From Bolinopsis microptera (lineage: Eukaryota; Ctenophora; Tentaculata; Lobata; Bolinopsidae), in assembly GCF_026151205.1 (NCBI RefSeq), contig NC_087074.1:8349726-8413725 (forward strand): a stretch of 64,000 bases of DNA, written 5' to 3'. The position numbers and the translations under genes were made by a program. Under the pieces are notes generated by a model. That model had not been told where the DNA came from. It searched no databases and was given only the letters and a program-made list of their open reading frames with translations. Position 1 is the first letter of the stretch. Every line of letters begins with the position of its first letter. This document shows, piece by piece, positions 5,986-48,648 of the stretch.

Positions 5986-5989
5986 TCTT

Positions 5990-8900
5990 ATAACCGTACT
6001 ACTGACTCTTATAACCGTACTACTGACTCTTATAACCGTACTACTGACTCTTATAACCGTACTACTGACTCTTATAACCGTACTACTGACTCCTATAACC
6101 GTACTACTGACTCTTATAACCGTACTACTGACTCTTATAACCGTACTACTGACTCTTATAACCGTACTACTGACTCTTATAACCGTACTACTGACTCTTA
6201 TAACCGTACTACTGACTCTTATAACCGTACTACTGACTCTTATAACCGTACTACTGACTCTTATAACCATACTACTGACTCTATAACCGTACTACTGACT
6301 CTTATAACCGTACTACTGACTCTTATAACCGTACTACTGACTCTTATAACCGTACTACTGACTCTTATAACCGTACTACTGACTCTTATAACCGTACTAC
6401 TGACTCTTATAACCGTACTACTGACTCTTATAACCGTACTACTGACTCTTATAACCGTACTACTGACTCTTATAACCGTACTACTGACTCTTATAACCGT
6501 ACTACTGACTCTTATAACCGTACTACTGACTCTTATAACCGTACTACTGACTCTTATAACCGTACTACTGACTCCTATAACCGTACTACTGACTCTTATA
6601 ACCGTACTACTGACTCTATAACCGTACTACTGACTCTTATAACCGTACTACTGACTCTTATAACCGTACTACTGACTCCTATAACCGTACTACTGACTCT
6701 TATAACCGTACTACTGACTCTTATAACCGTACTACTGACTCTTATAACCGTACTACTGACTCTTATAACCGTACTACTGACTCTTATAACCGTACTACTG
6801 ACTCTTATAACCGTACTACTGACTCCTATAACCGTACTACTGACTCTTATAACCGTACTACTGACTCTTATAAACGTACTACTGACTCTTATAACCGTAC
6901 TACTGACTCTTATAACCGTACTACTGACTCTTATAACCGTACTACTGACTCTTATAACCGTACTACTGACTCTTATAACCGTACTACTGACTCTTATAAC
7001 CGTACTACTGACTCTTATAACCGTACTACTGACTCTTATAACCGTACTACTGACTCTTATAACCATACTACTGACTCCTATAACCGTACTACTGACTCTT
7101 ATAACCGTACTACTGACTCTTATAACCGTACTACTGACTCTTATAACCGTACTACTGACTCTTATAACCGTACTACTGACTCTTATAACCGTACTACTGA
7201 CTCTTATAACCGTACTACTGACTCTTATAACCGTACTACTGACTCCTATAACCGTACTACTGACTCTTATAACCGTACTACTGACTCTTATAACCGTACT
7301 ACTGACTCTTATAACCATACTACTGACTCTTATAACCGTACTACTGACTCCTATAACCGTACTACTGACTCTTATAACCGTACTACTGACTCCTATAACC
7401 GTACTACTGACTCTTATAACCGTACTACTGACTCTTATAACCGTACTACTGACTCTTATAACCGTACTACTGACTCTTATAACCGTACTACTGACTCCTA
7501 TAACCGTACTACTGACTCTTATAACCGTACTACTGACTCTTATAACCGTACTACTGACTCTTATAACCGTACTACTGACTCTTATAACCGTACTACTGAC
7601 TCTTATAACCGTACTACTGACTCTTATAACCGTACTACTGACTCTTATAACCGTACTACTGACTCTTATAACCGTACTACTGACTCTTATAACCGTACTA
7701 CTGACTCTTATAACCGTACTACTGACTCTTATAACCGTACTACTGACTCTTATAACCGTACTACTGACTCTTATAACCGTACTACTGACTCTTATAACCG
7801 TACTACTGACTCTTATAACCGTACTACTGACTCTTATAACCGTACTACTGACTCTTATAACCGTACTACTGACTCTTATAACCGTACTACTGACTCTTAT
7901 AACCGTACTACTGACTCTTATAACCGTACTACTGACTCTTATAACCGTACTACTGACTCTTATAACCGTACTACTGACTCTTATAACCGTACTACTGACT
8001 CTTATAACCGTACTACTGACTCTTATAACCGTACTACTGACTCTTATAACCGTACTACTGACTCTTATAACCGTACTACTGACTCTTATAACCGTACTAC
8101 TGACTCTTATAACCGTACTACTGACTCTTATAACCGTACTACTGACTCTTATAACCGTACTACTGACTCTTATAACCGTACTACTGACTCTTATAACCGT
8201 ACTACTGACTCTTATAACCGTACTACTGACTCTTATAACCGTACTACTGACTCTTATAACCGTACTACTGACTCTTATAACCGTACTACTGACTCTTATA
8301 ACCGTACTACTGACTCTTATAACCGTACTACTGACTCTTATAACCGTACTACTGACTCTTATAACCGTACTACTGACTCTTATAACCGTACTACTGACTC
8401 TTATAACCGTACTACTGACTCTTATAACCGTACTACTGACTCTATAACCGTACTACTGACTCTTATAACCGTACTACTGACTCTTATAACCGTACTACTG
8501 ACTCTTATAACCGTACTACTGACTCTTATAACCGTACTACTGACTCTTATAACCGTACTACTGACTCTTATAACCGTACTACTGACTCTTATAACCGTAC
8601 TACTGACTCTTATAACCGTACTACTGACTCTTATAACCGTACTACTGACTCTTATAACCGTACTACTGACTCTTATAACCGTACTACTGACTCTTATAAC
8701 CGTACTACTGACTCTTATAACCGTACTACTGACTCTTATAACCGTACTACTGACTCTTATAACCGTACTACTGACTCTTATAACCGTACTACTGACTCTT
8801 ATAACCGTACTACTGACTCTTATAACCGTACTACTGACTCTTATAACCGTACTACTGACTCTTATAACCGTACTACTGACTCTTATAACCGTACTACTGA

Positions 8901-9153
8901 CTCTTATAACCGTACTACTGACTCTTATAACCGTACTACTGACTCTTATAACCGTACTACTGACTCTTATAACCGTACTACTGACTCTTATAACCGTACT
9001 ACTGACTCTTATAACCGTACTACTGACTCTTATAACCGTACTACTGACTCTTATAACCGTACTACTGACTCTTATAACCGTACTACTGACTCTTATAACC
9101 GTACTACTGACTCTTATAACCGTACTACTGACTCTTATAACCATACTACTGAC
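5990..9153. repeat. 21-bp minisatellite, about 150 copies
   Basis: Tandem array of ATAACCGTACTACTGACTCTT spanning about 3.16 kb. Copies are nearly identical. Variants seen: CTCCT for CTCTT (near 6092, 6574, 6678, 6825, 7077, 7245, 7351, 7392, 7497), ACCAT for ACCGT (near 6268, 7065, 7314, 9142), one AAACG near 6874, and three 20-bp units with one T lost (near 6281, 6614, 8441). Because 21 is a multiple of 3, three of the six frames stay open, giving long repetitive frames such as (VIRVSST)n on the minus strand. I treat these as by-products. The array ends about 220 bp upstream of the first coding exon of the 17-exon gene. Confidence 0.98.
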
Positions 9154-9365: not shown

Positions 9366-12300
9366 ATGTTTCAGGCGATGGTACAGACCAGATACTCCGT
9401 TCCGGCCTTCACTGAGCCTACTCTGTCGGGAGATAATGGAAATGGGCCTCCTTTTAAACTCGAAGACTTGGAAAAGGTCAAGATGTACCCCGAGCTCAAA
9501 CATTACAGGTCAGATACGATCTCAATCTGCTTGAGTATTTCTGTTTTTGTGAATCACACGTTTTATCTTAACCGTGCACTGACACGTGTTCTGTAGCATT
9601 TCTAAAGAACTTTTAGATTGAAATTTAATGGAAACAGTTTGATGTCTTCCACATCCTCTGAAACAATATTTTTTCTCCCAACATCACTTTAAATTTGATA
9701 ACTTAGCAAATCATAACCTGTGCCACTGCCAACAATAAAATGAAACAAAGTCTGCAGCAATTTTGTACAGTAAAATAGAACCACTTGCACTAGTTAACAA
9801 GACCTACTCGTTTGTGACAGTTGGTGTCAGCTAGCATGTGGTAGCATGTTATTATTATTATTAAGCGTAGGCTTTCCGTCTCTGTTTAAATTCTATTGTT
9901 GAGTTTTAAATATTTGGAGCGCTTTAAAGTGGCTTTTAAACCGAGCTGACTTGAGGACATGAACTTCGCCGGATTAGTACTCAGTAGGTATTGTCCTTAT
10001 TGCTTATACTCTAGCACCGCTGCATAGCACGAGAGATCTTAATGTTTGGACATTGGATCTGAAGAGTCAGAGTACAGGGGTAGTTACTTGATCAGTAAAC
10101 AAACATTCTCCATGACATGCTTTTCTGAACGGTGTACGTTTTGGACCTCCTCCATGCAGTACCTGGCACAATGGTAACAATAAAAGAAAATCCCATAATT
10201 TATAAACAGGTGAACTGTTAAATGCTCTACAGTCTACAGCGCCATGTCTATATAACGTTGAGTATTGACCGCTATTCTACAAGAGATTGTAACCAGCATG
10301 TAGGCGGACTACTGGTCCGGAATGTCCCAACAATTACATGACGCATGTAGATTGTAGATGAGATGGCCAGATGCCACCTGTGCCTGTCAATTCAGCAACA
10401 TAACCAACATGAAATTCGTAGCCATTCCCATTAGTACTGTCCACGAAAATCCCGGCAATGTCGACAAATCTATATCGATTCTAGCTTCAGATTGTATAAT
10501 ATAATAAAGAATATTATATTGATAAAGAATTGTTTCTGCAGATTAGAAGAAAGCTACAAAGTTAGCCAAGATACGAGGAAAATATCTATACCACTCCGCA
10601 CAACGGAAGGAATCAGGCCATTCAGTCCTGGTCGCCTCAGTGACATGGCCAGACCAGTTACAGCACCTGTTGGACCTGTCCGGCCTATCGACTTGTACAG
10701 ATCACGACACGAATTCCAGGATAGAGATTCTGAAGGAAAACCTCGCCAAATTGACTTGAGGTATAGCATATTTGAATTATATTCCGTTGGATGCGTGCGT
10801 TTAATTTTGAAATTAGGTTTAAAGATATCAACATCAATCATGCTACTAGCATGATTGTGTTATCTTTAAACCAAATTCCAAAACGCGCTGCTAGCTTTTA
10901 ACTCTACCTACTGCTTCTGTTTAACATCTATTTTATTTCAAATAGCAGCGTACGGTTATTTAGTCTCATCGATACTGATTTGAATTGATAACTGCGTCTG
11001 CTTGACTACTAAAATGCAACTTTTAAGGAAACACTACTTCAAAATATTTTGACCTGGTACACTCTAACTTACGTAATGTATACTCCTAAGGTTGTCCATG
11101 GCCAGGGAGACGTTCAAGCCCCGCCTCCCCCCAGAGCCTACTCATGTGTGTCGTAGTGACTTCCCTGAGGGCATCTGCGGTAAACCCCAAAACATTATCA
11201 TCAGATCTTTAGAGAAACGGGCCAAAAGGGAGTCCCTCAACTATTCAACGGTGAGTTCCACTTTCATTAATTGTTCTTTCTATTTCTCATTGGCCTACTG
11301 GGTTGATCAGTAACAACGAACTGTAGGGCTGTGAAACGAACAACTTGTCTAATTGCTAATAGAGATAATAAACTGGACCTTGTCTGGTCATGTGGTACGA
11401 TCAGATGAATTCTCATGCGATTTTAACTCAGTGAACATATCCCCAGACCCAACGGAAGATAAACCTCGATAGCAAGGAGTGTAGTATTAACTACCCAATA
11501 CCGCTGAAAATATTCGGAAATTGCAAACCTATCGTACTCAGGACTTGGGAAAGGGTAAGTAAGATTTACTTTATTTCGAATTTTATCTTCCGGTATCTTT
11601 TGTGCGATATTTAGGTACTGACATGGACTCAAATGGCGATGAATCTCTTTGGAACCATTCCCAAAATCATGAATCTATAAAGCTATAATGAGCATTTCAA
11701 AGTCTACAGCTTACTGTAGACTTTGAGCCATGCACAGCAATCAATACAATGTGCAAAAAAGCTTTGAAATAACAACATAATTAATACTACAAACTCAAAT
11801 TACAAATAAGAACTAACCGTAGTCAATTAGGATCAAGGATTAGTCAAGGATACAAGATTAAAAAAGAATACCCATTAATTAGAAGAATCTGCAAATATCA
11901 TGTTGTTAGAAGGGGCACGTGAGAAGTGGGTGGTCGACCTACTTGGTAATCAGTCAATCAATCGGTTAAAATAGTAACGCAATTTTCAATTCGTTCGTGG
12001 TCTCGTCAATTAACGAGAATAGGATATCTGTCTCTTGTACCGTGGGGAATCAGTCAGGAACCTTCAAGGATGCATTCCCTGCTCCCATTTAGTTCCGAAA
12101 AGTGTCTCCTCCCAACGCAGCTTGATAAATTTCGCAACTTTACCTTCAAGAACTCTCTGAAACTCCTCTCCAGAAAACAGTAAATTATAATTGAGATAAC
12201 GTTTATGTTCCTGAGGTATTTAACAGCGTGCAGCAGAGGGGGACTGTAGTCAGAATGTCTTGTCACATTGACAGTGAACCAGGGAAGGAATGAGAGAAGG

Positions 12301-15300
12301 TAAATAGTGGTAACGAGAGTGACTCCCAGTAAACTCTGCCAGTGTAGCTGGTGCACGGTTCTCCTCCTTACTTTGCATGGTATCAGGACAGATGTTAGGA
12401 TCATTGTTGATGCTAGAACCACAAAACATACGCTCTGTATAAAATCACTCTTCTCTCTCCAAACAACTTTAGGAAGCTCCGTCTGTTGGTTAGCACAGGC
12501 TGAGTTGCTAAAAACAGGGCCTGATTGCACACACAGATAGATAACGAATACCCACACCAGGGCGCAGACTGAGTGAGCAGAGCTGCTCGACCAGTTTCTA
12601 GGTCTTAGAGGGATCCTTATCATCAGTAACTTAGCAACCAACAGAGCACATGTTAGACTGCCAGCCAGTGGACAGTAGATCCAGTTAACATGATCCTGGA
12701 TGAAGCACAGGATATCACTCAGTATCATGTGGTCTGAAGTATCACGTGTCACTTCCGGTATCATTACTTTAAACACAGAAAACAGGAGATTGTTCACAGC
12801 GTGATGTTGCAAGATGACTACGATTACCCTGTGTAGTTTAAAGGAAGTGTTTTTAGTTGTCACTATGAGGATAACTGTGTTTCCTGTGAATGAGAACAGG
12901 AATATTATGAGGTTGTAGGCTGTCCAAAAGTGCCGTTCTTCGTCTTTCATATCGAGCGTGTGGTTACTCTTAGGAATCATCTTATCGTACCTAAAAGTAA
13001 TTATGGCGTACAAAATTACATTAAACTTTATTCTAAAGATTGAGAACAGCAAATAAATTGTAACACAGTATATAACGCATGGTTGCAATAAGTACAAAAG
13101 GGAAACTGTTGACTTGCACGGCAATTGAAGTTCTCCAATAGATACAAATACCACGACGAGGATAAATCATGGTACAAATTATCCTAGTGACGTCAATAGC
13201 TTTGAGAATTTGTTCGGTGTACTACGATTATACTGTTGAACACTTAATTACGATCCGTAGCATAGAAATGGAGAAACCCGAAACGGTAAGATCAGTTATG
13301 CAGCAAGGGCAGGGCAACAATTATAGTACATACTCAGACAGTATTTTCATTCGGTCAAACTCTTCAAAGTATCTGAAATATGAGCCTTTGAAGTTAAATG
13401 AAGTACCACTGTCGTCTGTCGAGCAATGTAAAGGAAAATATGCAAAATCTGTGAGCGAGAATTATATTACGGTTGAACACGAATTTATGATCAAGAGCTT
13501 AGAAACAGAGAAAGTTGAAACGCGGTAATATCAGTTATGCAAAGGTAGGGCAGAATGTTAAACTACTCAATCAAAATGTTCATTTTGGCGAGCTTTGCAA
13601 TATATCTAAATTATGAATGTGATGACGTAAATGTAATTGTAACTTTCACTTTCGAGCTGTGCGTGCGAACAAAATGCCAAAATTGTAAATGAGGTAACAC
13701 TTCCTACGATGTAGCAAATACAGAAGCAAAACCTCTCCGGGCCATATTACTATGGAGACATATAGCGCTGGCCATGGAACTGTATATATAGTGTCATTCG
13801 TTATGTCGTCACTCCATTATTTGTTAATTACTGACTGGGTTTCAAGTGAGAGATCCAGTGCAGTGCACAGAGTAACAGAAGGGCCACATTATTAGCGATT
13901 CCCTCCAACAGTGACGTCAGCTCATGACTAATATTCCGTGTAATTAGATGTACAGTGCACACGGCTGCATCCAGGCGATAGTACCTACTGGGAGTTCCAT
14001 CCTACCCTATCCTGCTCTTAGCACGGTGCGTTTACCGTACAGTGCTACATAGCACGGTGAGTTTACCCCAGGGTTGTGGTGCCTGCCACCTAAAAGACTG
14101 GTACTCCTCCTAACGGATGTCATGCAGACTCAGACCGGCACTGTATCGATTTTCGGAGAACGTTCAATTTAACAAATTGAAATAATTGTAGTCGCGCCGT
14201 GAACGAAAGAGTTGGGGGGTCTTGCTGTTACGACAGGGGAACCTAGGGTGGACCTAGGGCGGTATTCAGAGTACCTTGCACCACTCTTCAGTGCCAAGTC
14301 AGTATGAATGCTCAATTCATGCAGTAAGATATCTGGCTTCGAAAAATTGGAGAGAAGGAGGACAAGGAAAACACTGAAATGTGACCAGGAAAACTAAGAA
14401 AATGACAACATTTTGTATTGAGACTCGAGAACCTACACCAACATATTCTTGTTAAATGGATCTAATTCATCACGGACAATAGCTACAAAAATTTCCATAA
14501 CAAAGAAGGATATAGCTAAATATTTAAATAGAAGACTGCATTGTTTAGCTTTTTTATCTTTGTTTTAATGACCCATAAATAATGTAGCACAACTCGATTA
14601 AACCTGTTATATTTCAGCCATCCTCTGGTTGGACACCAAGACAGAGAGCCCAATCTGCTCCTCCATACTCGCGTCCTGGTCCAGGTTTGCTTATTGACTC
14701 AGAGTACCATAAACATTATAGCTTGTTTTAAAACTTCATCAGGATATCGAATTATTGAAACTAATAATATCTAGTGATGACTCCTTTAGGATCCCAAGTG
14801 GCACTTAGCGAGTTCACAGAGCCAACAATAAGTGAGTCTGAGATATACGACTCGACACTTCAGCCTAATTACGAGTGCGAGTGCTATGTTTTGGACGAGC
14901 CTGATGAGGAGTTAAGGTGAGTACTTTCTGTTTTAGAAATTAGTATTTTAGGAATGTTTTTAAATCATATGTAGGAATATTGAAGGAATCATACTTGATA
15001 CCAGTCAACACTTCCCCTCTCATCTCTTTGATATTAATAAAACGTGACAATTATTTTTCATGATTTACATCTCTAGCCTACTAGAAAATCTTGTGCTAAA
15101 ATATACAAACTTGAACTCAAACTTTTAAGATCATATCATACAAACTTTCACTATATCGACCATCTTCTTCAGAGTAAACGAAGGTACATCAGAGCGGCTA
15201 GCACTTTCTCACTACCTCCACATAGTTGGGGAACTAGAGAGCAGTGTCACCTACACCGAGCTAGCTCAACATCTCAGCTCCTTTACACCTGGTAGACAGT

Positions 15301-18300
15301 TAAACATTGTGGAGATTGAGGGCATCAGAGATCTTCTAGATGATTCCAGTGAGATGAAAGTTCTTGCGGCGCTCTGCATCTTAGAAAGGTCTGTCGATTT
15401 TAGTATACATACAGAATATTTATATATGCAAAATGCTTTTTCTTTTTCACTAAAGCATTTTCATATCTCATAATTATTATTTTTTAAACATTTGATAACA
15501 GTGGACAATCAAATCCATCACTGATGTTATTCGGAATTCTTATTTCAACGTCCTCCTTTTTGCAGGTTGTCCACAAAGAAAGAGTTGGGTGAAATGATGA
15601 TAAAAGAATTCTTCATGTTAGTGTTAAGGAAGTGGGTGGCACTTATTAACAGTGACGACTGCCCGAGTAAACTTCTCAATCCCATCATCAACTTTATTGA
15701 AAACGTAAGCATTGGTTGCCAACATTATTTATACTGTGACTGTTTCTATCTTAATACTCTGGAATGTTTACTTACTAGCGGTCCATCCCACCAGACTCCA
15801 GAGTGAAAACTCAATATATGGCTGTTAATGTATTCATGTAACGGTGTCTGTAACTGTAAGCACGGAAAGTTCAAAGAACTAAGCCCCATTCACTGCTTCC
15901 TATGGACTAAATCTAATAAAAACTGCAAGACGTTAAATAATGATAACAATTTTTAAGCCAATATTAAAAAAGTGACAAGTAACTCCACTGTGAGCAGGTG
16001 ACACACTCCACACACCACGACTACTGGTTGGACGATGTGTACAAGGAGCAAATAGTGGAGCAGACTACCGCAAAGATGACGTTTGATGGCACCAGGGCAC
16101 GATGCTGCACTCTGCTGCTCCGGGTCTTCAGTGACTCTCCCTGCTGTGCTAATATTCTCGCTAATACAGCTCTGCCTGAGTGCATGATGCTGCCTCAGGT
16201 TTCAGCTTATATAAAAACTTGAATCCTTTTTTTCAATCGGCTTTTGCAATTATCCTCTGTATTTCGGTTGTTACGTTCTCTAGTTTTCAATTAAGGAATT
16301 GGGTTATGTATCTTGTCTCTTGTTCAACACTAATCTCCCAGTTGCAGGTAAAGCAGACGTATTGGGATGACAGCGAAGAAGCACTATATCTAGACGAAGA
16401 CATCTTCCTCCAGGAGGAAATCCTCAAAATCTTCTGCAACATCGCCCATTCCTCGAGCTTCGGACGGAAGGTCCTCATCTGCCACGCTGTCATAGAAACA
16501 ATATCACGAGTCCTGGTGTTCGCCACGTGTCCAGTGCAGTACCAAGCAGCACTGCTGTGTTCCGCGATATGTGCTGACGTCACAGGGGTAGATCACGTGA
16601 CCAGCAAACTAACCAACGAGAGGGCAGATGAGGCGACCTGTGTTAGACACCTGGCTAACCTCTTCACTCACTCAAAATGTTTGAAAGTGAAAGCGGCCTC
16701 TGGAGCTGCTCTGTTAAGGCTGTTCAGCACCCAGAACCGTAGTCTGGCTCACCGAGGTCTGAAGATGGTACATGATGTAGTGTTCCCTAAAACTAAACCT
16801 CAGCTCTCCAAACGACCCAAAACAGCTCCACCTAGAACTGTACCTGAACGGGCTGTTAATAAGACGGATATCAAGGACATGCTTCAGAAATACATGGAAC
16901 TGTGTACGTCGAAAGGTGCGTTCGCTGATCCTAGATATTTCAGATGTAGACTCATGGCGCTCGAAGCGGTTTACACTCTTCTTCATTTCCCCCTAAAGAA
17001 AGAAGGGCGCTCAATTCCCTTTCATGCTGATCTGGCTAAATCATTCTTTGCTTTCACTGGCAGCAGACTCTTCCGGGACTTGAAGAAAATTGCAGAAAAA
17101 CACCGCTACGTGAAAATATTACAAGACAAGATCCAGAAGATCCAGATAAACCTGATCAAGAAAACAAAACGTAACGTGATGGTCTCCCAGATCTTGGACA
17201 GGCAACTTCAAGAAATAGAAAGTGATAACTCTGTCTTGAAGATTCCAGGCAGAGACTTTGAGATGGCCCGAAACGAACTGGTGTACTGTGAAACTGTCAT
17301 CAAGATACTCAGTTTAATGCTAACGACTGTGAGCAGTAGTCTCAACTTACAGACTCTCGATAGTGGATCTCTTCTCGACTCTACTAGGAGGTTGGTTAGA
17401 ATTTTATTTACTTTCGAGCAATCTGCATTTACTACTTAGTTGTATTGTTATCGTCGTCCGTATTTAACATTGTTGCATAGTTATGCTTAACGTTCAGAAC
17501 ATGTATCGTTAAGCTGCCCTGCTTAACCATACATCTTTTGTCTGTGAAATGTCTTATTTTAAGACTTACTTTTTGATTTGGCACAGCGCACCCAAGATAT
17601 CTCTCCGTAAGGGATTTGGATAGGGTTGGAGCCTCGTCTCAGTGTGTATTTTCTTAATCCGTGCTCATAGGTCACCCCTCCAAAATCTGTATTGAGGATC
17701 GATAACATTTATGAGGAAGCAGGATGGTGCAATGTATCTCTATGCTTGGTTTTCACATCTAAATATAAAATGCCCTTTATTGTACTGAAATTACCAAAAT
17801 TTAAGAAAATGGCATTCCCCTATATTATACCTGGACAAGGTTTCATTTTATGAAGACCTGATCTTGTAATTTAGAAAAGAAGGCAATATTATACAGTTAC
17901 CGTTTCTAACTGAACATCGGCTCAGCCCCTCTTTCAAACTGACATAATAGGTAGGTCTCGCAGTGTAGTCTTTCAAAAATGTGTCTCCATGCTGACACCA
18001 CCTCGTACCTGAGTATCAGATATTGAGTTATGTAATTTTGTTCCCAGCTTCTTCATTATTTTGAACCTTATCGATATTGATTGCTAGAACTATATACAGT
18101 TCAAACTTTAAGGTTTAATCGTAATAAAAATAGAATCGTTCTGTCACATCCTTCTTTAAATCGTTTTGAAGCAGCTCCGGTTTTAGTTTTAGCTAAACTC
18201 ACCAGTTTTGGTTGGTTGTAAAGCGAGTAGCAATATCAGAATACTGATGTACAATGCTTTGCTTTTCCATTGCATCATCTCAAATTGTGTCCGATAAGGT

Positions 18301-21300
18301 AACACAGGTTGCAACCCTGTGTTGTCTGTGGCAGCTGCTCGTTTCACTTAAAGTATCGTGGGGCTCCCCGAGAATATATCTATACGAAAGCAGTCAGAAA
18401 AGCGATCTAAGGCTCAAGCCCAATATTCCTTCAATATTGGAATATATTCAAGTTTTAAACCTCTCAAATATTAAATATCGAATATTGAACATTGCCCCTA
18501 GTGCTAGGTATACCCTCCTCCGTGGATCCATTCACCGTTGTTATTTAATAACATACCATTCAGAAATTAATCTAACGAACACACATCTTGAGATTATTAG
18601 TATAGATTGAGCAGTTTGTCGTTGTTAAATTTTAGAAGCCTACATCCAGTGCTCAGCTACTTCATCTCATATAATTTAGGGTATATCTCGATAGTCGATA
18701 TACACCCTCCAAGAATTATAACTGCTGAATATTTCCGATACAACTCACAGCACACCACCCTCCAAGAATTGTAACTGCTGAATATTTCAGATACAACTCA
18801 CAGTACACCACCCTCCAAGAATTATAACTGCTGAATATTTCAGATACAACTCACAGTACACCACCCTCCAAGAATTATAACTGCTGAATATTTCAGATAC
18901 AACTCACAGTACACCACCCTCCAAGAATTATAACTGCTGAATATTTCAGATACAACTCACAGTACACCACCCTCCAAGAATTATAACTGCTGAATATTTC
19001 AGATACAACTCACAGTACACCACCCAGCACCCTCAAAGAATTATAACTGCTGAATATTTCAGATACAACTCACAGTACACCACCCTTCAAGAATTATAAC
19101 TGCTGAATATTTCAGATACAACTCACAGTACACCACCCTCCAAGACTCGCTCTACAACAAGTATGCTCTGAGTGTACTGCCTGGCCGAGTTAACAGTCCC
19201 TCAAAACCCGCTGTGGGAGACAACTCAGAACAACATCTAGCTTTGGTTAGGAGACTTCTCACCTTCCAAGTGGTGGAGACGTTAGTGCCGTGGCTTTATT
19301 GTGTATATCCTCCTATCACCGTGAGTATAAGTTCTACAAATTATTAAATTCTAAATTAGATTCAGATCGGATAATCCATTCTCTATAATTAAAGGCCCAA
19401 AATTGCGGAGGAGTGGCCGTGACTTCAGTTTCTGTTTCCCATTTTCATGTCAAAGGAAATTATATTAATTCATATAATGCTTTTGGACACGAAGGGAAAC
19501 ACACAAATCTTCGTAAAACTACATCATTAGAGCCTGTAAAAACATCTAACTTTAAGATAAGCACTCTATCAAATAAAATTCATACATAATCATCAGAGTT
19601 CATTAACTCAAAAGTAAAAATTGTAACAAAGACAAAATTTAATCAGTCAATATTCGTGGTTATATAAATTCAACGTGAAAAACTGTTGCCAAAATAAGAC
19701 TTAGAATGAAATCGTTCGTTTTGCGATTCAGCTTTTTCACATTCATTCTCGTTTAATTGTTCTTGTAGACAGCTATTTCAAAAGCTAACCACCCCCTAAC
19801 CAGTAACCACCAATATGAACCATCTGAACGACACACTTTACAGGCACAGGTGCTTTTGTCTCAGCACTTACCTAATATTTTTGAAATTACTTACTCCGAA
19901 GTATAACCTAATTTTCATCACACTTGCTTTACCATTTTCGATAAAATTGGGGGAAAATTTTAACAAAATATACGAACATATATACCACGTTGCAGTATTA
20001 AATTTAACAAAATTTAATATTTGGAATAAAATTAAATTCTGGTCGATGGTAAACCCGATGGTACCCAACTTTTTAGTTCTATTGTATTGGTAAAGGGAAA
20101 TCAGGGTGTGAAAAATTACTGTAATTCATCAGAGCAAAATCAGTCTTAAATATACGATAAAGTCTTTCAATAAGTTCCGGACCCTGCTGGGAAAGCGTCT
20201 CTTTGGCCCGCAGTGCAGACGTTTGGTTCCTCGGATCACTTGTATGGTCGTAGGAACCAAAAAGTTTCGTTGAGGTGTTGATTTTATTTTGTATTTCGTG
20301 GCTGAGAAGATTGCTGTATTCTAATGGCAAAATGTAGTCGTAGGTAACCCCAGGGATGTACAATGTTCGATACTGTGGAGTAAAATGGACGTTTAATCTA
20401 TCTAAATTATCCACAAGCCAACGGAGAAACTGGTTAAAAGTTGGATGACTAGGACTGCTTGTGATATTATCTATCATATTCATCTTCCTGGATATCATAT
20501 GAGCCATAGAGGTAAATGCTCTGCCCTGTGTGTGTTCTCCAGAAAGTTTGTCTCTATACCCCGACACGAGCCTTGTCCAGGGGTTACGAACTACTGTAAA
20601 ACTGAATATATCATCTTCTAGGCTTGCTTTGTTAGCCGCCTCTGATACGGCATTATTGGACATACGGAATGGTTCTGAGTATATCGAATGAACTTTCCAA
20701 ACGGCTCGTGGATCTAAATTCTTATTCAGCGCACCTTCAGCTTTCAGTAGAAACTCTATCCAGTTCGAACACCCAGATTTTGGTATTCCTGTAAATATGG
20801 TTTTTATTTTTGGAAAGTAGTAAGTGTGTTTTGCATTTCTTTCATTTTTCCCAGTCCACTTATTGGGAGATTCGTGAGTCGTGTAACCTAACAGTGATAA
20901 AGTCTTGTTTAATTGTTCTTTAACCCAGCCTTGAGATGGAGGTGGTAGATGGAGGTCGGTGGAACTGTTGGAGACGTGGACCCCAATTTCAATTTTAGGA
21001 CGATTTCCTTTGAATTCACTGATGAAAAAACTGCGTTTGAGTTCAAATAATGTTAAGACCAGGAAAATGATTAACACAGCCCATCTTCCATTCATTGTTT
21101 TAGCCTGCAAATGTAAAGCTCATAATGGGGAATTGTTCAAAATCGACAGCAAAACAAATTTGACAGAAGTATGTTCTACTAAAAACGTTCAAGCATCCAC
21201 GGGGAGGGGGAGGGGGGCTGGCGCTTTGAATGTGGGACAATTTTTAAAACTTAACCTTTTTTCTTTTTTTTTCTTTTTTTTAAAAGCCCCTCGTAAGGGG

Positions 21301-24300
21301 ATTGTCTCTGATTTATTGTTTACATCATAATAAGTTAAAATTAAAAACCCCAATGGGCACTCCAGAAACATAACTACTAGAAAATATATCAAAACTAAAT
21401 AGAAAAACTGAGGTCAAATGTGATAAAATCGCAACAAACTGCAAATAATTGAAAATAAATGTTGAATTCGTTATTTAATGGCACGCAGCAGATTATAAAA
21501 AATGTTATAAAAGTCAGAAAACTGAGGGGCTTAAATTCCGGTCTTTTTGGGCTGAGCGACTTCATAATTTTGCACCGGTTTAACTACGAAAATTTAATGC
21601 GTGTTTTCGAATATAATAGGCGGGTTTATACTTTTGGATTTCAGCTGCGATACTGCTTCTCATCATTTTCTTCCCCAATTGTTAACTTTCGACATTTCAC
21701 CACTTGAAGTTAATCCAAAATGTTTTGAAAAAGGTTTTGAGGGTTGACACAACAAGAGTAAACGCATATTAATCCTTATAGTAACTGTACAGCAACCTTA
21801 ATGAAACTGTACAATAACCGTAAAGTAACCGTTTAATAGCCACATAGTAACCACATAGTAACCGTAACTATATTCGCAGGAGAAGGTGGTAAGATGTCTG
21901 TCCTCACTGTTTACATTCAGTTCAGTACACTCCCTCACTCTACATTGCGACACTGCAGACAAGGAGGAACCTTTTAACGTCCCTGACTTCCTTAACCTCC
22001 AACCCTCCGATGTAAGTAGTTTTCAGTGTGACTTACATAGGATTATTTATAACAGATATTAGTATTACAAGTAATTTGTTTTTGGTTCAAAAGAAATCTT
22101 CCAACACTTCTGGCGTTGTTCCATCTATACCATATTATATACTATCGCATGAGCGACTAAACCTCATTCTTTCATTATAACCAGGAACAGTGATTCCTAA
22201 TTCGGAGCTAGAGTTTTAATTTTCACTGCATAACCCGAACTTCTTTTAAAACGTAGGTTGCTCAATATATGAAGAGTACAAGCGTCACCCCAAAACATAT
22301 CAGTAACAGGGACAGTCGGCCAGTTCGCTTCACAGAGTAAGTGATAATATAATAATAATGAGTGCAGATTTTATTCTAACTTTTTAATAGTCTGTCACTT
22401 CAAAACAGTAAGTAACACTATAATAAACATCAATCACACTATAAACACTATAAACATCAATCACAACTAAACATTTTCTGTTCACGCAAACTTTCCGGCT
22501 TATTAAACCCTTCCTTTCGTTAAATTTTTCGTTAAATTTTTAGTTATAGTATGCTAATGATGGTCGATGATGCTACAGATTAACGATACATACTTTCAGG
22601 CCGCCTCGAACAGCAGAAAGTAATCACGGTAGAATAGTACGACCACCTGTTATAACGATTCCAGTAGCAGGGGTTGTGAAACCAGTTGTAGTTGTTGAGC
22701 AGTGTACACATCATATAGGCAAGTATCGATATGTTTATTTGCAGTCACCATTGGTTGCATAAACACTGTTATTTTGGTTTTACATCTTTGCTTTCATAGT
22801 TAAGAACTCACTATATCATGAAGCACAATATACACAGCTCAGCTTCAGTACGATTGTTATGAAATCATCTGAAGCTACTACAAACAAGGGCCTCTAAAAT
22901 AACATCACACCTTCAGGACACTTGTGCTCAGGAGTTCTCACACAAAACCTACTGATTTGCAACAATCACACGGTCTCCCGTCTTACTGCTCAACTGCTGA
23001 GAGACATCGCCAAGTCAGTTACTGTAAGTACAGCCAATCTCATATTAAAATGTTTGGGAACGGGCAACCAATAACTATAACAATAATAATATTTATATTT
23101 TCTAGTTAATTCCCATCCGCCTGCACTTGCATATCAATGATAAATTGACAAAATTGCTTTATTATTTTCAGAGGGAACAGCTGCTGTGCATGGTAGACGA
23201 TTATCTGCTAGAAAAGCTGACGGAGTATATCATTTTGTGTAATGGTGATGAGGAGAGAATATTTGTTGGTAAGTCTAACTCTAATGACACTCTAAGTAAC
23301 TCTAATGATAATATAAGTGACTCTAAGTAACTCTGAGATCTCTAATGACACTCTAAGTGGCTCTAAGTGACCCTAATGAAACTATTCGAAAAATCGTACA
23401 ATTTTACTAAGCTGAACGTTATATTAAAGTCTCAACAGCCAATAATTCTAATTAAGATAAATTAAGATTGAAAGTCATCGCAAATTAAACTTATGACCAC
23501 TTTTCAGCCCTGGATATTCTAGAAACGCTGATTGAGTTCCAGCCTACGTTAGGAAAGTTATACAACACGGTGGGCGGCTTGAACACCCTAGTGGCTAAAC
23601 TCCTTGGAGCGGCTTCTGAGCAGCTCAAGCAAAAACTATTGAAGATAATCAATAGCCTCCCAAACGATGGTGAGGGCTATTTATGGAATTCTTAACCTAA
23701 CCGTGAATATCTTTGGAATTGATATATTTCACGAATACTTTGTCTTCAAGTTCAATGGACTTACGACGTGTGTGGTTCAATGTTATTGGCTAATAATGGA
23801 TTCCCACGCGGCAGTTTATTATATTTAATGCCACCAACGTGTCTCCAACATTGACCAAAGTAAATCCATTGTTAACATTTATTATATCGGTTAACAATGG
23901 ATTTACTTTCTCCCCGGCAATTTGGGAGTCTAATAAGTAAACCAATAATATGTAAAAAATAAAAAATAACACAAACAATAGAGTTCATATACACACATGT
24001 ATATTGTACATTGTACATTGTATATTGTATATTGTATATTGTACATTGTATGTATTTACGCATTACTAGAAAGCCCGTGGTCAAAGGGAAGAAGGTAATA
24101 TTATTTGTATCTATCTTTGGTAACTTCAGTTTTTATCGCATCAAAAAAATATTCGTCACAAACGAAGATACCGCCGAATTAAATGTAAAACACGTTAAAC
24201 ACAACGTAATTACCACAAAACCGATCAAAATGCCGTTCTAACAATCTTTGCAAGTGAACGTGCGTGTAACAACCATCGTTACTATGGTTACTAATACTAT

Positions 24301-32517: not shown

Positions 32518-33769
32518 ATGGGACCAAATGATAGCTCAATAAAGTTAAATGCAACAAACGCTTTACCAGGACGAGAAAAGCCATTAACGGTTGGTTCGTG
32601 TTTCTTTAAGAAATCGTGTTTTTTTTGTCAATTACTGGATTCAGGCTGAAATATAATTTGAGTCGTACATAAAAATAATATAAAGCATCCGTGATTTACA
32701 GGGGATTTCAGAAGTCCATGCTGTTAATGGAAACAGAATATTTCCACCTTTTCCTGAAGGGACCAAGTCAGCAACCTTTGGGATGGGATGTTTTTGGGGA
32801 GTTGAAAGAAGCTTCTGGAAGATAAAAGGGGTCTATTCTACTCATGTAAGTCCAGAAAATCATACAATTATATTTTAAAGACTATAAAGAGCAGTCAGAA
32901 GATATTAAACATCCGTATATTTCAGGCTGGCTATGCTGGAGGATATACTAAGAATCCCACTTACCAAGAGACGTGTACAGGAGCAACAGGGCACGCTGAG
33001 GTAGTGAGAGTTATTTTTGATCCAGAGCAAGTGAAATACAGTGCTCTACTAAAGAATTTTTGGGAGAACCACAATCCAATTGCTATAGGTGGAGAAGGAA
33101 GAAACAGAGGTATTGTACTCGCGTTTAATGTTTAGTCAATTAAAAGGAATGTATGATTTCCTTGGTTTCTTCAATTTAATTTTTAATTGACACTAAATAA
33201 GTAAATTTTTCATGTCTTTACTCATTATGTCTGCTGTTTTTGAATAACCACAAAGTAGAAAATGTGAATTTAAAAAGTAGATAACACATTGACCTCCCTC
33301 ATCCCATTCCCAGGACCAATGTATCGCTCTGCCATATTCTGTGACAATGAAACACAATTGGAACTAGCTAGGAAAAGCGCGGAGAAATTTCAGCAGAACC
33401 TAGACGAAAGGGGGGGTACCAGGTACAATTTGTCTCCTTCTATTCGCTTTATCACCTTCTATTCGCTCTAAAGGAAAAGGTATTACAAATAAAATGAATT
33501 TTGAATGGTCATACAGAAAGAAGCAATCCATAAAACAATTAAATATTTTTACCACGGGCGCAATCAAATAACATTAATTTAGTATTCAGTAAATCACACA
33601 GGAAATGCAGATCTAAATCTTGATTAATAATTGTGCAGGTGAGATAACAACAGAGATAAAACTGGACAATGTGTTTTACTATGCTGAAGATTACCACCAA
33701 CAGTATCTTCACAAGAACCCCGGAGGTTACTGTTCTCTGCGAGGTACAGGAGTTAACTGTATTTTGTAG
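32518..33769 (+). CDS. MSRA: Peptide methionine-S-sulfoxide reductase A, copy 1, 5 exons, 210 aa
   Basis: Exons 32518-32589, 32702-32845, 32926-33109, 33314-33415 and 33639-33769 give 210 residues. The enzyme reduces the S epimer of methionine sulfoxide in proteins. The catalytic motif GMGCFWGVE is intact (Cys54), as are [27 protein letters not shown] and the C-terminal [11 protein letters not shown] with resolving cysteines. The loop that reads RQGNDTG in copy 2 is GEGRNRG here, so the aspartate matching E. coli MsrA Asp129 is Asn132. The exon 4 donor inferred from phase is the weak g|GTACCA at 33416, which drops two residues relative to copy 2. The stronger-looking site ag|GTACAA, 10 bp further on, would bring a stop. 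Exons 2, 3 and 5 are almost identical to copy 2 at 51.9 kb, while introns are not. Confidence 0.85.
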
Positions 33770-36977: not shown

Positions 36978-38188
36978 ATGCTGCTTAGTAATAGTCTTGT
37001 TTTCCTCGCAGTCCTTCCTCTCTTCCGATGTACAGAAATTATTACAAATACTGGTAACTAAGTTTACTATTACAAGCTGATACTTGCTTTTTGTTTATTA
37101 TTTCTTCTGTTTTCTTGTTTCGTGCTTTTTTCTTGTGTCGTCTCATGTCGTGTTGCGAATGATATTATAATTTAATTTTAGTATATTTCGATTTCATTAC
37201 TGTAAGTATGGCATAGCATACTTATCAATATTATGAAGATAATTTGTCCTCAGATTCAGAAGAACAGGAATGCAGCAACGATGACGATCAGTATGGTTGT
37301 GGAGATTTAACCATAAGCTATCAACAACGATCTGAACTACTACAAGTCTTACAACTGTACTCAGTGCACCTCTTTGAAAGGACTCCAGGGAGAGGCGAAC
37401 TGATATCAAATAACGGTTGTGTCGAAAAAAACGGGACCGGTTCAGAATGCTGTACTGACTTGGAAATTATACCATTCCACAAGAATCTTTTGTGCGTCAA
37501 TATCACATACGTGGGAGTCAATCAAACGAAAATTGATGTTTTCCTGACATGGAACGGCCAAGTCGAAATTCATGCTGAACTCATAGACTTCAGCCAACGC
37601 ATCTGCTTAAAACTTCCGTTATTTGGAAATGATCTTGTTGAAGTTTGTGTCTATTTCACGAAGATGTCGAGGGTAAGTTTTGCGTTAAGTGTAGTGGTTT
37701 CGATCAAACATTACCCTCTTAAATTATTTCATGTGAGTCATATAACCACAATCAGACTCACAATGTAGCACTTTGTGATATCATAGGAAAGTTATAAATA
37801 ACTCTAATATGCTTTCAATGAAAACAAAAATGTTTCATGTGTTTAATGCAAATCCCGTGCAAGTAGTAATTTCAAGTTAAGGCTTAAATATAATTTGTGA
37901 TATGAATATAAAAATAAGCATCAAGAACTTTGATTTATTTCAATATTTCAGGAAAACGGCACTCTGAGTGGATGCTTGAACCTATTCTTCAGATTTATAA
38001 TTCCATCCGCATCGGTCCAATTAGGTTGTTTCGGAAATGCAAGAAGTGCTGCATTCTCCGCTCAATTAAGCACTACACAAATCCTACTCACTTTCATGCT
38101 ACCTTTTTTGAATCTTTTGGTATTCAATGATTTCAGATTTGGGTATTGGAATCCAAAAACGATTCAGTCATCAGTGTTTCTTACCTAG
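36978..38188 (+). CDS. Secreted cysteine-rich DUF4773-like protein, copy 1, 3 exons, 243 aa
   Basis: Exons 36978-37053, 37254-37672 and 37952-38188 join in frame (phases 1 and 0). Exon 1 encodes a signal peptide, MLLSNSLVFLAVLPLFRCTE. An acidic linker (DSEEQECSNDDDQYG) follows, then the conserved domain: SECCTDLEIIP, LLCVNITYVGVNQTKIDVF, LTWNGQVEIHAELID, RICLKLPL, LVEVCVYF, LSGCLNLFFRFIIP and SVQLGCFG. The CC...C...CLxLP...C...GC...LGCF pattern with an N-glycosylation site in CVNITY is what I recall for DUF4773, a secreted domain of invertebrates with unknown function. It is a disulfide-rich beta-type extracellular protein by inference. The paralogue at 41.88 kb has the same exon layout. The last ~12 residues differ from copy 2 because of a 1-bp indel. 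Confidence 0.8.
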
Positions 38189-41880: not shown

Positions 41881-43121
41881 ATGCTGCCCAGTCTGGTTTT
41901 CCTCGCAGTCCTTCCTCTCTTCCGATGTACAGAAATTATTACAAATACTGGTAACTAAGTTTATTATTACAAGCTGATACTTGGTTTTTGTTTAGTGTTT
42001 CTTTTGTTTTCTTGTTTCGTGTTTTGTTTTCTTGTGTCGTGCTGTTCGTGTCGTGTCGAGATAAATATAATTTGCTTTTAATATATCCTAAGTCGATTAC
42101 TGAAATTATAGCATAAAATGCTTATCAATATTACGAAGATAATTTGTCCTCAGATTTTGAAAACAAGAATAAATGCAAGGACGATCAGTACGGTGGTGGA
42201 AATATAACCATAAGCTATCTACAACGAGCTGAAATAGTACAACTCTTTGAAAAGACTCTTAGGGGAGGCGAACTGATATCAAATAACGGTTGTGTTAATA
42301 AAGGGGAAAACGGGACCGGTTCCGAATGCTGTACTGACTTGGAAATTATACCACACCACAAGAATCGTTTGTGCGTCAATATCACATACGTGGGAGTCAA
42401 TCAAACGGCAATTGATGTTTTCCTGACATGGAACGGCCAAGTCGAAATTCATGCTGAACTGATAGACTTTAACGAGTGCATTTGCTTAAAACTCCCGATA
42501 TGGAAGATTGGAAATCTTGTTGAAGTTTGTGTCTATTTCACGAAGATGTCGAGGGTAAGTTTTGCGTTAAGTGTAGTGGTTTCGATCAAACATTACCCTC
42601 TTATATTAATTATTTCATGTGAGTCATATAACCACAATCAGCCTCACAATGTAGCACTTTGTTCCTGATATCATAGAAAAGTTATAAATAACTCTAATAT
42701 GCTTTCAATGAAAACAAAAATGTTTCATGTGTTTAATAAATCGCAAATCCCGTGCAAATAGTACCTCAAAGTTAAGCCTCAAGTACAATATTTGATATGA
42801 ATCGAAAAATAAGCATCAACTTAATTCCTTGTACATGTTAATATGTGAGCACTTTAATCAATTTTAATATTTCAGGAAAACGGCACACTGAGTGGATGCG
42901 TGAACCTATTCTTCAGATTCATAATTCCCTCCGCATCGGTCCAATTAGGTTGTTTCGGAAATGAAAGAAGTGCTGCATTCTCCGCTCAATCAAGCACTAC
43001 ACAAATCCTACTCACTTTCATGCTACCTCTTTTGAATCTTTTGGTATTCAATGATTTCAGATTTGGGTATTGGAATCTTAAAAAAGATTCAGTCATCAGT
43101 GTCTCTGACCTAGCTCGCTAG
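41881..43121 (+). CDS. Secreted cysteine-rich DUF4773-like protein, copy 2, 3 exons, 238 aa
   Basis: Exons 41881-41950, 42154-42554 and 42876-43121 join in frame to 238 residues. Signal peptide MLPSLVFLAVLPLFRCTE, then a polar linker shorter than in copy 1 (the 10-residue LQVLQLYSVH-type segment is missing). The domain has the same cysteines: ECCTDLEIIP, RLCVNITYVGVNQTAIDVF, CICLKLPIW, LVEVCVYF, LSGCVNLFFRF and LGCFG. Copy 2 has an extra Cys in NECICLKLP. It ends ...WNLKKDSVISVSDLAR, longer than copy 1 because of a 1-bp indel. An AATAAA lies at 43212-43217. Function unknown; extracellular by its signal peptide. Confidence 0.8.
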
Positions 43122-45648: not shown

Positions 45649-48648
45649 TCATGCAATTTGCATACTTCTCCATTTAACTCTATTCTGAGCGATTAAAGTT
45701 AAATTGTTTAAATCACATAAATTATTTAACGATAATTTTCGAACACTAAGGTCGTGTAGAATCAGTGAGAAAAGGTTTGACTGCGGTCTTCCACGCCGCC
45801 CTTGAAGCTGTAAGGTGTTAACAGCAAAAACAAGCGACGAATAGGCTGGACCATCTGTAGGCCCACGCAGTACATGTCCGAGCATCCTCCACCGACTACG
45901 AGCCACTTTAGCTGACAATGGTTCGCTATTGCAGCGTTTATACAAGTTCTTGTTGGAAATGATGTGAGGGTATTTGTAATTCAAAATTGATCGCAGATGA
46001 CGTCTGTGAGCAATATCTAATTTTTCCAATACTGATTTAGGGGCAGCCCAGCAAGATGAATTGTACATTAAAACGGATACTACCAGAGCCTCATTCAACA
46101 GAAGCCTCTTGCTCAGAGGGATCTTATGGTTCCAAGCTTTCTTGTATTTGTTAAACGCGGCATATCCCAGACATATCCTTCTAGAGATGTCCTCCTTACT
46201 ACAAAGCATGGAGCCAAGCGTGATACTCTTTCTCCAGAGCTCGTTCCCTGCAATTGGCTTACCCTGATCGTCTTTAGCTCCCTTTTCAGCTAAGTACACA
46301 TGAGTGAAATCAGTTTTGTCTTCGTTAACGAAGAGATTCCAATCTTTAAGGACTTCTGTTGCAATAGGCAACAGCTCCCTCAAATTGTCCTCATCTTCAT
46401 CATTGAAGTCGATATCATCAGCATACTCACTGTCAAGTGGAAGACCGATATCGGTAATAGGTGGGTTAGGCCTATTCATTGCAGTTTCAAGCCTGTTACG
46501 GAGGTCACGCAAGGCACCCGCTAAGACAAGTGTGAACAAACATCCAGACAGACAGTCACCTTGGAATGCACAGAGAAAACTCTGGAATTCAGCAGACAGT
46601 GTACCGTTGATATTGACTTTGAGCTTGGTGTTGGAAAGCAAAAGTCTTACCAAACGGACTTCGTCATCATCACAGCCACACTAAACAAGAAGATCGAGGA
46701 TGGTAGATCGTCGTATAGTGTCAAAGGCACTAGACATATCGATCCCCATACGATGGTATTCCCACCTCTTCCTCTGGACAACTGATAACATCACACGCTG
46801 GCACCATACAATGTCAGCACATGATCTACCCTGCTTGTAAGCACATTGCCATGGACCAGTGAAGGCATTGACTTTATTCTCAATTCTCTTCAAGGTTGCC
46901 ATTGAAAGAATCTTTCTAACAGCATCTGAGAGAGTGAGGGGTCGTAGATTCTTCACTGAACCAATGGGCTTATTTGGCTTCTGTAAGGGGGTAATGTTTG
47001 CCTGTCCAATGGGGTCAAGGTAGGAATTGGTCTCGAAGCTTCTATTGATAATGTCTGCAAAACGTCTGTGTACTGATCCAGTAGAATACTTGAGAAGCTC
47101 GTTAGGAATTCCATCTGGGCCGTTAGCTCGACCATTTTTGAGACTTCTGGCAGCTGATCCGATTTCTTCACTTGTGAATGGCTTAACTAGTGGGCGAGGA
47201 GGTCCTACAAAAGGTTCTAAAGGTGCTTCATCACGAGTAAGTTGTTGCTCAAGGTACTTAGCAACTACGGCAGCTTTACCAGTGTCTGTTGCAATATTGC
47301 ACCTTTTCTCATCATGAACACCAATACAAGAAGGGGCTTTAGGTAAGTTCAGGGTTCGAACATCTTCAAACATTTTCTTACTATCTGTTGTTGAACTGAT
47401 GGTATTACAGATAGCATCAGCAGCAGCTGATCGTATGTTAGAAAGTCTCTGCTTGATCTGATTGGTGAGGCAGTTAATAGATGATCTAAGTGAGGTTCTG
47501 TCTAAAGACTGGTTATCATTAAGCTGCTGTCTCAACAAGTAACGCTGGCTAGATAAGTTTTTCACCTCATCATCGTCGCTGCGATTACGTTTCCTGTGTC
47601 TGATGACACCAATTGACGATTTTGCAGCATCCTTTATGGACTCAAGTAAGCCATTCAAGTCTGAATTTGGATCCAGAGCAGAAACAGTGTTACTTAAGTT
47701 ATCATCTAAGGATTGACGATATTTCACCTGAATGGTGGGGTTCGAGGTGTTGAACTTTAAGGATGTCTTGGAGTGGCGTTTATAGCAAAGACAGATGTCC
47801 TTAAAGTCTACTCTAGTGACAACAAATCTGTGATCAGAGTATGTCAAAGTGCCTGCATAAGATCTAGAATCTTGTAGCATTGGCTTCGACCTACTCCGAC
47901 ACAGGATGAAATCGATCTGAGAATAGACCGGGATCGTCTTTTTACTATTTCGCCCGGCACTCCAGTCCTTCCTCCAGCCAGTGTAGGTGGTCGTATGTCG
48001 AGCAGGATGATAAAAACCAGTGTTGGAGGCAAAGAGGTCAAATTCTGATAACAAGTCTAACAAGTTTTCCCCCATATCGTTGCGCAAACCCATACCATGT
48101 TTACCCATGAAACGACCAAAACCAAAGTCCTTATCTGAAGTAGTCATTTTTCCCAACTTTGAATTAAAATCCCCCAAAACAAATATCTCAACATTAGCAG
48201 GGACATTTAGAGCGTCCCTAACTTGGCCGTAGAAATTGATCAACAGTTGTTGATCATTTTCTGCAAGTTTCTTGTGTGGTCCATATACATTGACCACCCT
48301 ACATTTGATAAATTTTCCTGATTTTGTAGGGAGTTCTAGGTCCAAAAAGCTTACTCGATCACTAATACTGTTCCAGCATACCACATAGTCAATAAATCGG
48401 GCACTGATAACAAAACCAAAATTCGGATTATAAACATACATATAATAGAGGTCCCCAGGAGGAGCCGCAAACTTGGGGAAGTTAAGCTGCTTCTTTCGTC
48501 CTCGCACATCGCACCGCCCATCACGATGTTTCTTGCTACGATTAATATAAACTTGAAAATGCTTTTGAGTAGCATCATGCCATATATTATGCATAAGCTT
48601 TCGAGGTTGGAGGACTTCGCCGATTCGAAGCGCCGCGCGAACTAACAT
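45649..48648 (-). mobile_element. Non-LTR retrotransposon ORF (endonuclease + reverse transcriptase) with one in-frame stop
   Basis: Reading from ATG 48648, 655 codons run to a TAG at 46683-46681, then the same frame continues from 46680 to the stop at 45649. Only this one codon breaks a frame of 1000 codons. Domains in order: APE-type endonuclease (FVLGDFNSKLG near residue 160; YSQIDFILCRSRSK; LTYSDHRFVV), a linker, and reverse transcriptase (RANGPDGIPNELLKYS; PNKPIGSVKNLRPLTLS; GIDMSSAFDTIRR; after the stop GDCLSGCLFTLVLAG and the catalytic EYADDIDF). A C-terminal region with HRRHLRSILNYKYPHI and RWRMLGHVLRGP follows. The endonuclease N-terminus looks abnormal (LRIGEVLQPRKLMHN where a family member would have a WN-R motif). 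Clade not assigned. Confidence 0.88.

Follow-up and report, generated by a model that had tools for sequence, protein, structure and literature searches.

A probable mirage-type minisatellite with seven identical acceptors at a predicted 3' splice site of a coding gene

When a minisatellite repeats the end of an intron together with the start of the next exon, which of the repeated acceptors does the spliceosome use? The question is raised by a tandem array identified with TRF at 18703-19145 on the plus strand of the window, i.e., the whole stretch of 64,000 nucleotides analyzed here (period of 53, 8.2 copies, 94% matches, and a score of 788, far above chance). The element CTGAATATTTC was found eight times on the plus strand of the window, every match lying within the array, and not once on the minus strand. 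Cutting the array at AAGAATT gave eight plus-strand units: five of 53 bp (units 1 to 5, at 18711..18763, 18764..18816, 18817..18869, 18870..18922, and 18923..18975), one of 60 bp (unit 6, 18976..19035), another of 53 bp (unit 7, 19036..19088), and a last unit that runs into the exon (unit 8 to the array end, 19089..19145). In the open frame, each unit divides into 23 bp from the predicted end of the intron (ATTATAACTGCTGAATATTTCAG) and 30 bp from the predicted start of the exon; judging from the sequence, the element duplicated is a 3' splice site, apparently a functional one, of a coding exon. An identical TTTCAG acceptor is present in 7 of the 8 units, with first exonic bases at 18791, 18844, 18897, 18950, 19003, 19063, and 19116 in units 2 to 8, respectively; in unit 1 the motif reads TTTCCG, and the AG is gone (CTGAATATTTCCG). 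The initial annotation had proposed an eightfold duplication of a splice acceptor in a 53-bp unit, with eight or nine equal acceptors 53 bp apart. The array and its eight units are real, but unit 1 supplies no AG, the acceptors had been overcounted, and a 7-bp insertion in unit 6 lengthens one of the seven intervals between units (18976 to 19036) to 60 bp, the other six being 53 bp. The loss of the AG in unit 1, the shift in frame brought about by the 60-bp unit, and a second donor, at 17395, that makes the penultimate acceptor productive had been overlooked.

Units 3 to 8 are identical across their first 46 positions, unit 2 differs by 1 and unit 1 by 2; the count stops at these positions because of the 7 bp inserted in unit 6, and a single additional change is present past them in unit 7. 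At the left edge unit 1 has diverged, and at the right edge unit 8 has not. Private changes (CCG in unit 1, a G in unit 2, the insertion in unit 6, and CTTC in unit 7) speak, together with the shortness of the array (443 bp) and its location on a 21.3-Mb contig, against the very improbable explanation that the copy number, or the array itself, stems from misassembly, for which the precedent is a mirage in the lancelet draft genome described as apparently misassembled (PMC3087553). In a search of the 264.65-Mb assembly, the array came up at a single locus and the exon was not found a second time. Older degenerate units were not found in five stretches flanking the array, to which the unit aligned locally no better than shuffles did (P = 0.10 to 0.74).

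The exon that precedes the array (exon 9 of the initial annotation) has its 3' part at 16282..17390 on the plus strand, with a strong coding score, and sits in a long open frame of 419 codons (16180-17436). Its 5' end varied by run, being placed at 16296 by the gene finder and at 16348 by the retrained version, and the 5' exons of the gene, which differed between runs of this simple gene finder, are candidate models only. The gene finder was trained on 9,857 codons, including the exon before the array, and over-predicts (118 exons in the first chain, at the earliest setting; 90 at penalty 9; 59 in one chain at penalty 11). Because it does so even at penalty 11, only the strong exons and the join of 17390 to 19116 were used. 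The join was predicted at penalty 11 and likewise by the retrained version, with looser penalties inserting extra exons between the two positions, and is supported by these models, not proven. No second copy of the host gene was found in a genome search, which returned one copy.

The coding exon predicted from the last acceptor (exon 10 of the initial annotation) occupies 19116..19320 on the plus strand in an open frame, its first 30 nucleotides lying inside the array. Over 19117-19320, the coding score in the expected frame was +1.4 bits, weakly the best of three (the others being -18.7 and -19.3 bits), with +2.95 bits over 19117-19176 and -1.5 bits, still the best of the three frames, over 19177-19320. 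Candidate 3' ends are 19320, 19280, and 19272, and this variation does not touch the question of the acceptor. The first is followed by the candidate 5' splice site ACC/GTGAGT (a slash marks the splice junction here and below) at 19321..19326 (phase 0; 5.69 bits, above 46% of 103 introns), and the second by GAC/GTTAGT at 19281..19286 (phase 2; 8.1 bits), both on the plus strand. The end at 19280 was the choice of the retrained gene finder, which then added a doubtful exon at 19366 (coding score, -0.6 bits); before retraining, the gene finder picked the end at 19272 (4.2 bits). A tentative next real exon lies at 21880..22011 on the plus strand (phase 0; 8.6 coding bits; acceptor, 7.7 bits) and fits the donor at 19321; between the 19320 region and 21880, short low-scoring exons were placed by the gene finder. 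The upstream intron is 1,725 nucleotides, the longest of 104 predicted introns, and the downstream intron would measure 2,559 nucleotides only with an exon end at 19320 and a next exon starting at 21880. A sulfotransferase (PF03567) occupies a single open frame on the minus strand at 20082-21119, a short way past the exon at 19116..19320; this frame would lie within the intron if 21880 is the next exon.

Searches against Pfam gave no match for the single exons, nor for the 717-amino-acid exon chain even at an E value of 10, and since no protein homologue was thus available, the placement of the exon start draws on frame, splice strength, and the weak coding score. A phmmer search of the PDB returned three matches up to an E value of 1, the best two being designed proteins (0.022 and 0.14) and one a ribosomal protein; AlphaFold run without an alignment yielded a poor model (pLDDT of 42), nearly all helix, with the exon before the array modeled as helical throughout. 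Rfam and tRNA scans of the window found nothing.

The main 5' splice site, GAG/GTTGGT at 17391..17396 on the plus strand (phase 2), scored 8.62 bits, above 94% of 103 introns with its own intron left out, and a second one, TTG/GTTAGA at 17395..17400 on the same strand and four bases on (phase 0), scored 5.64 bits, above 44% of the 103. Read in phase 2, that of donor 17391, units 1 to 5 and 7 are open for 11 codons and then meet a stop in the following GAATTATAA, or in GAATTGTAA in the case of unit 1. Unit 6 gave 31 codons before a stop, since its 60-bp length keeps the frame. We tried 66 donor-acceptor pairs (2 donors by 33 AG sites above 2.5 bits) and asked which were open through 19320. Five were: 17391 to 19116 and 17395 to 19063 (both with acceptors of 10.1 bits), 17391 to 19092 (4.3 bits), 17395 to 19129 (3.1 bits, within the array), and 17391 to 19271 (3.6 bits, with a different end phase). 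Among the strong acceptors, 19116 is indeed the only one to give an open exon from donor 17391, as had been claimed of the most distal acceptor, but the penultimate acceptor, 19063, is open as well when joined to donor 17395. A pair of donors four bases apart and a unit of 53 bp create this second productive combination, whose product is longer by 57 nucleotides (19 codons) than that of 17391 to 19116.

The same pairs bear on whether the exon might start downstream of the array, which would then be wholly intronic with its repeated acceptors incidental. We consider this improbable. The coding score over the array part of the exon (19117-19152) is weak, at +1.0 bits, and no homologue in Pfam fixes the exon start, both of which are in keeping with such a start; yet no AG above 2.5 bits downstream of 19116 keeps both the frame and the end phase from donor 17391. 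The pair 17391 to 19271 is open with the wrong end phase, and 19129, which does fit with donor 17395, is itself inside the array.

To compare splice-site strengths, matrices were re-estimated over 264 kb (the window with 100 kb added at either end), using the 104 introns predicted there on the two strands, some of which are surely wrong. The unit acceptor scored 9.73 bits, above 84% of the 103 other predicted introns when the array's own intron was left out of training; in the other scoring all seven were equal, at 10.1 bits. On the plus strand of the 264 kb, only 53 sites reach the score of the unit acceptor, and 7 of these are the array units. Across the stretch that was scored, the seven acceptors do not differ at all, and the site sequence cannot direct the choice of the spliceosome. 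RNA structure was also considered as the selector and was rejected, as all seven AGs were about equally paired in the predicted fold (unpaired probability, 0.03 to 0.14). No branch-point motif stood out clearly among 83 introns, TAAC being present in 21 of the upstream stretches as against 12 controls. A single TAAC occurs in each unit, its first base 19 nucleotides ahead of the exon (GTAAC in unit 2), by which one branch point per unit is only suggested.

Donors above 2.2 bits were not found inside the array, nor any above 0 bits in units 3 to 8, and the array is therefore not a string of mini-exons. An AG followed directly by GT, as in a recursive splice site (ratchet point), was not found at the acceptors of the array, which read CAG/AT. 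The donor and acceptor per unit (AGGT type) expected of a tandem genomic duplication were likewise not found in the array units. These features bear on whether the array is an intermediate of intron gain (by the Rogers or tandem genomic duplication route) that makes new introns or mini-exons, a path that PMC3087553 proposes for mirages; with no usable donor in the units and with repeated acceptors of the form AG/AT, so that splicing recreates no donor, we regard this origin as most improbable. The array also differs from NAGNAG tandem acceptors, in which several acceptors spaced 3 nucleotides apart compete for one donor. Competition for one donor is common to both; here, AGs a few bases apart were not found, the acceptors being 53 to 60 nucleotides apart, and each unit has its own upstream sequence.

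With site strength held equal, the choice among the seven acceptors would be set by position and exon context. We predict that the last acceptor, 19116, is the likeliest main site, with the odds leaning distinctly its way, on the basis of the long upstream intron and of reports that splicing in lancelets is undisturbed. In the account given by PMC9225289, human competing 3' sites at least 20 nucleotides apart favor the upstream one, with a bias that is strong with short flanking introns and significantly reduced with long ones; its mixed class LS behaves like exon definition, which favors the sites closest across the exon. With 1,725 nucleotides of intron upstream of the array, exon definition would be expected to soften the usual preference for upstream sites, and because the length of this intron does not rely on the 3' end of the exon, the odds are independent of the length of the downstream intron. 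Most mRNA would accordingly be expected at 19116, with a minority at the upstream acceptors that is lost to nonsense-mediated decay (NMD), and joining of donor 17395 to acceptor 19063 may give a further in-frame isoform with 19 added codons. Choice of an upstream acceptor would give premature stops, and the suggestion that the array is a source of NMD isoforms is, from the sequence, a sound prediction.

Alternatively, the donor-proximal acceptors might be the ones mostly used; most transcripts would then meet a stop 11 codons into the exon and be degraded, leaving an allele of little or no function, with the severity depending on copy number. This is a less likely outcome that nevertheless has appreciable weight, given that there are seven equal acceptors, that the phase 2 reading stops after 11 codons from units 2 to 5 and 7 and after 31 from unit 6, and that first-step 3' sites are described as favoring the upstream site overall (PMC9225289). 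By analogy, since long introns only reduce that bias, upstream choice could dominate, in which case the gene may be a recent hypomorph, the intact frame being compatible with this since the array looks young. Set against it are the long upstream intron, which reduces the upstream bias in the same study, the normal splicing reported for lancelet mirages (PMC3087553, PMC3902484), and a frame that is open in the exons on both sides of the array. Predominant use of the last acceptor remains the reading we prefer.

Three features place the array next to the structures called mirages: tandem units that extend across a predicted exon-intron boundary (8 units, each with 23 bp of intron and 30 bp of exon), a splice signal in many but not all units (7 of 8), and homogenized inner units beside a diverged edge unit (unit 1, the opposite edge, unit 8, not being diverged). 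The lancelet globin gene BflGb6 is described as having an array of intron 3' end plus exon 5' part, with 6 and 3 units in two haplotypes, in which many but not all repeats carry splice signals, the inner units but not the cluster boundaries are homogenized, and RT-PCR suggests that regular splicing is not disturbed (PMC3087553). The present array resembles it in composition, in partial retention of the splice signal, and in its homogenized inner units, and differs in having 8 units of 53 bp rather than 6 or 3 of 150 to 160 bp and in being known from the sequence of one assembly rather than with RT-PCR. The name comes from Adh3 (PMC3087553), and mirages are also described in TnC and PGBD5, with splicing of Adh and TnC reported as undisturbed (PMC3902484). 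Like ours, these are tandem repeats over splice sites; unlike ours, some are at 5' splice sites, the units measure 10 to 72 bp (Adh3) or 60 and 108 bp (PGBD5), and the hosts are lancelets (PMC3902484, PMC3087553). Human internal tandem repeats at exon-intron borders, as reported in PMC2812944, are a further case of border minisatellite expansion able to change splice-site use, but those lie in paralogs from segmental duplications, with repeats kept in exons or turned into introns. In the open-access literature searched, no mirages under that name came up outside lancelets. At 264.65 Mb, the present assembly is well below the size of lancelet genomes, and a COX1 search gave no match. By analogy, the array belongs to the known mirage kind, possibly in a new lineage. 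Taken together, we hold with good though not full confidence that the array is a mirage-type minisatellite lying across what is predicted to be a genuine 3' splice site, in a coding gene of which the assembly search returned one copy, and that most mRNA would use its last acceptor.

A likely seed of the duplication is a 12-bp direct repeat, CACCCTCCAAGA, with copies at both edges of the array on the plus strand (18703..18714 on the intron side and 19134..19145 on the exon side). In a single-copy ancestor, two such copies would have stood 53 bp apart, one in the intron and one in the exon, a placement from which slippage during replication or unequal exchange could have duplicated the intervening 53 bp (23 intronic and 30 exonic); later slips would have produced the 8 copies and the homogenized inner units. 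Pairs of this sort are frequent in the 264 kb: outside arrays, 28 direct repeats with a length of 12 bp or more and a spacing of 20 to 100 were counted, versus 1 in the control, a single mononucleotide shuffle that was not array masked. The identity of units 3 to 8 over 46 positions points to a recent expansion, and copy-number polymorphism of the array is likely.

Within the 264 kb, 47 arrays have a period of at least 10 and a length of at least 60, and they account for 6.2% of the sequence. An enrichment of arrays at splice sites was considered and rejected, as 7 of 208 sites lay in arrays versus 12.6 expected (1,000 shifts); with no such enrichment and arrays this dense, no special mechanism is needed. 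Five of the seven in-array sites were judged spurious (in two low-complexity arrays), one is that of the present array, and the seventh, 23317, was judged inferior to donor 23269 even though the retrained gene finder prefers 23317. A degenerate 21-bp array at 23276-23376 starts 7 nucleotides inside the intron after the candidate donor 23269 (GTTG/gtaagtct) and seems to belong to the gene that holds the present array; TAAGT, a portion of the donor motif, recurs in its units, and the retrained gene finder instead ends the exon before that donor inside the 21-bp array, at 23316. Arrays adjacent to a coding exon were also sought without reference to the gene chain, and 3 of 60 merged arrays were kept as candidates, the present one among them. 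The second (44 bp by 2.1 copies; window coordinate -69120..-69029, L008:880-971), about 69 kb upstream, adjoins the 3' splice site of an acyl-CoA ligase exon with first base -69025 and holds two extra acceptor copies, CAG/GTATTT, in which acceptor and donor are juxtaposed like ratchet points. This exon boundary is well anchored, judging from Pfam matches to AMP-binding and AMP-binding_C and from an ungapped alignment across GFQ/VAPAELE to a luciferase-family structure. The third (15 bp by 6.9 copies, at -9270) is associated with no known protein and was given no weight.

Several other features of the window were recorded. A tract at 5986-9153 consists of 151 copies of a 21-bp unit (TCTTATAACCGTACTACTGAC) that are 98% alike and is open on both strands, encoding YNRTTDS and VIRVSST repeats; a DNA search of the genome, with one candidate region scored, found no matches to this unit elsewhere. 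Further upstream of the array is a single open reading frame on the minus strand at 12057-13166, with no Pfam match, which we take to resemble a seven-transmembrane (7TM) protein. A multi-exon methionine sulfoxide reductase A gene lies at 32702-33725 (PF01625 on its first exons), and two similar tandem open reading frames lie at 37217-37765 and 42117-42665, the first with a subthreshold match to DUF4773 (25.1 bits; cutoff, 27). Long reverse-transcriptase-like frames occupy 45652-51507 on the minus strand, at 45652-48687 (presumably LINE type) and 49612-51507 (presumably Penelope-like, with no Pfam match).

Seven identical tandem acceptors in a natural gene hold splice-site strength constant and leave the choice to position and context, and junction counts from RNA-seq would weigh the distance to the upstream donor against the distance to the downstream donor. 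A broader reading, which we offer as speculative and unlikely, is that mirages extend beyond lancelets and, in an apparently non-lancelet animal rich in minisatellites, recur at 3' splice sites (two in 264 kb). Copy number would then tune gene output, and the pairing of donors 17391 and 17395 with the last two acceptors would yield two protein isoforms, one 19 codons longer than the other. Should the host lie outside the lancelets, mirage arrays could arise wherever minisatellites are dense.
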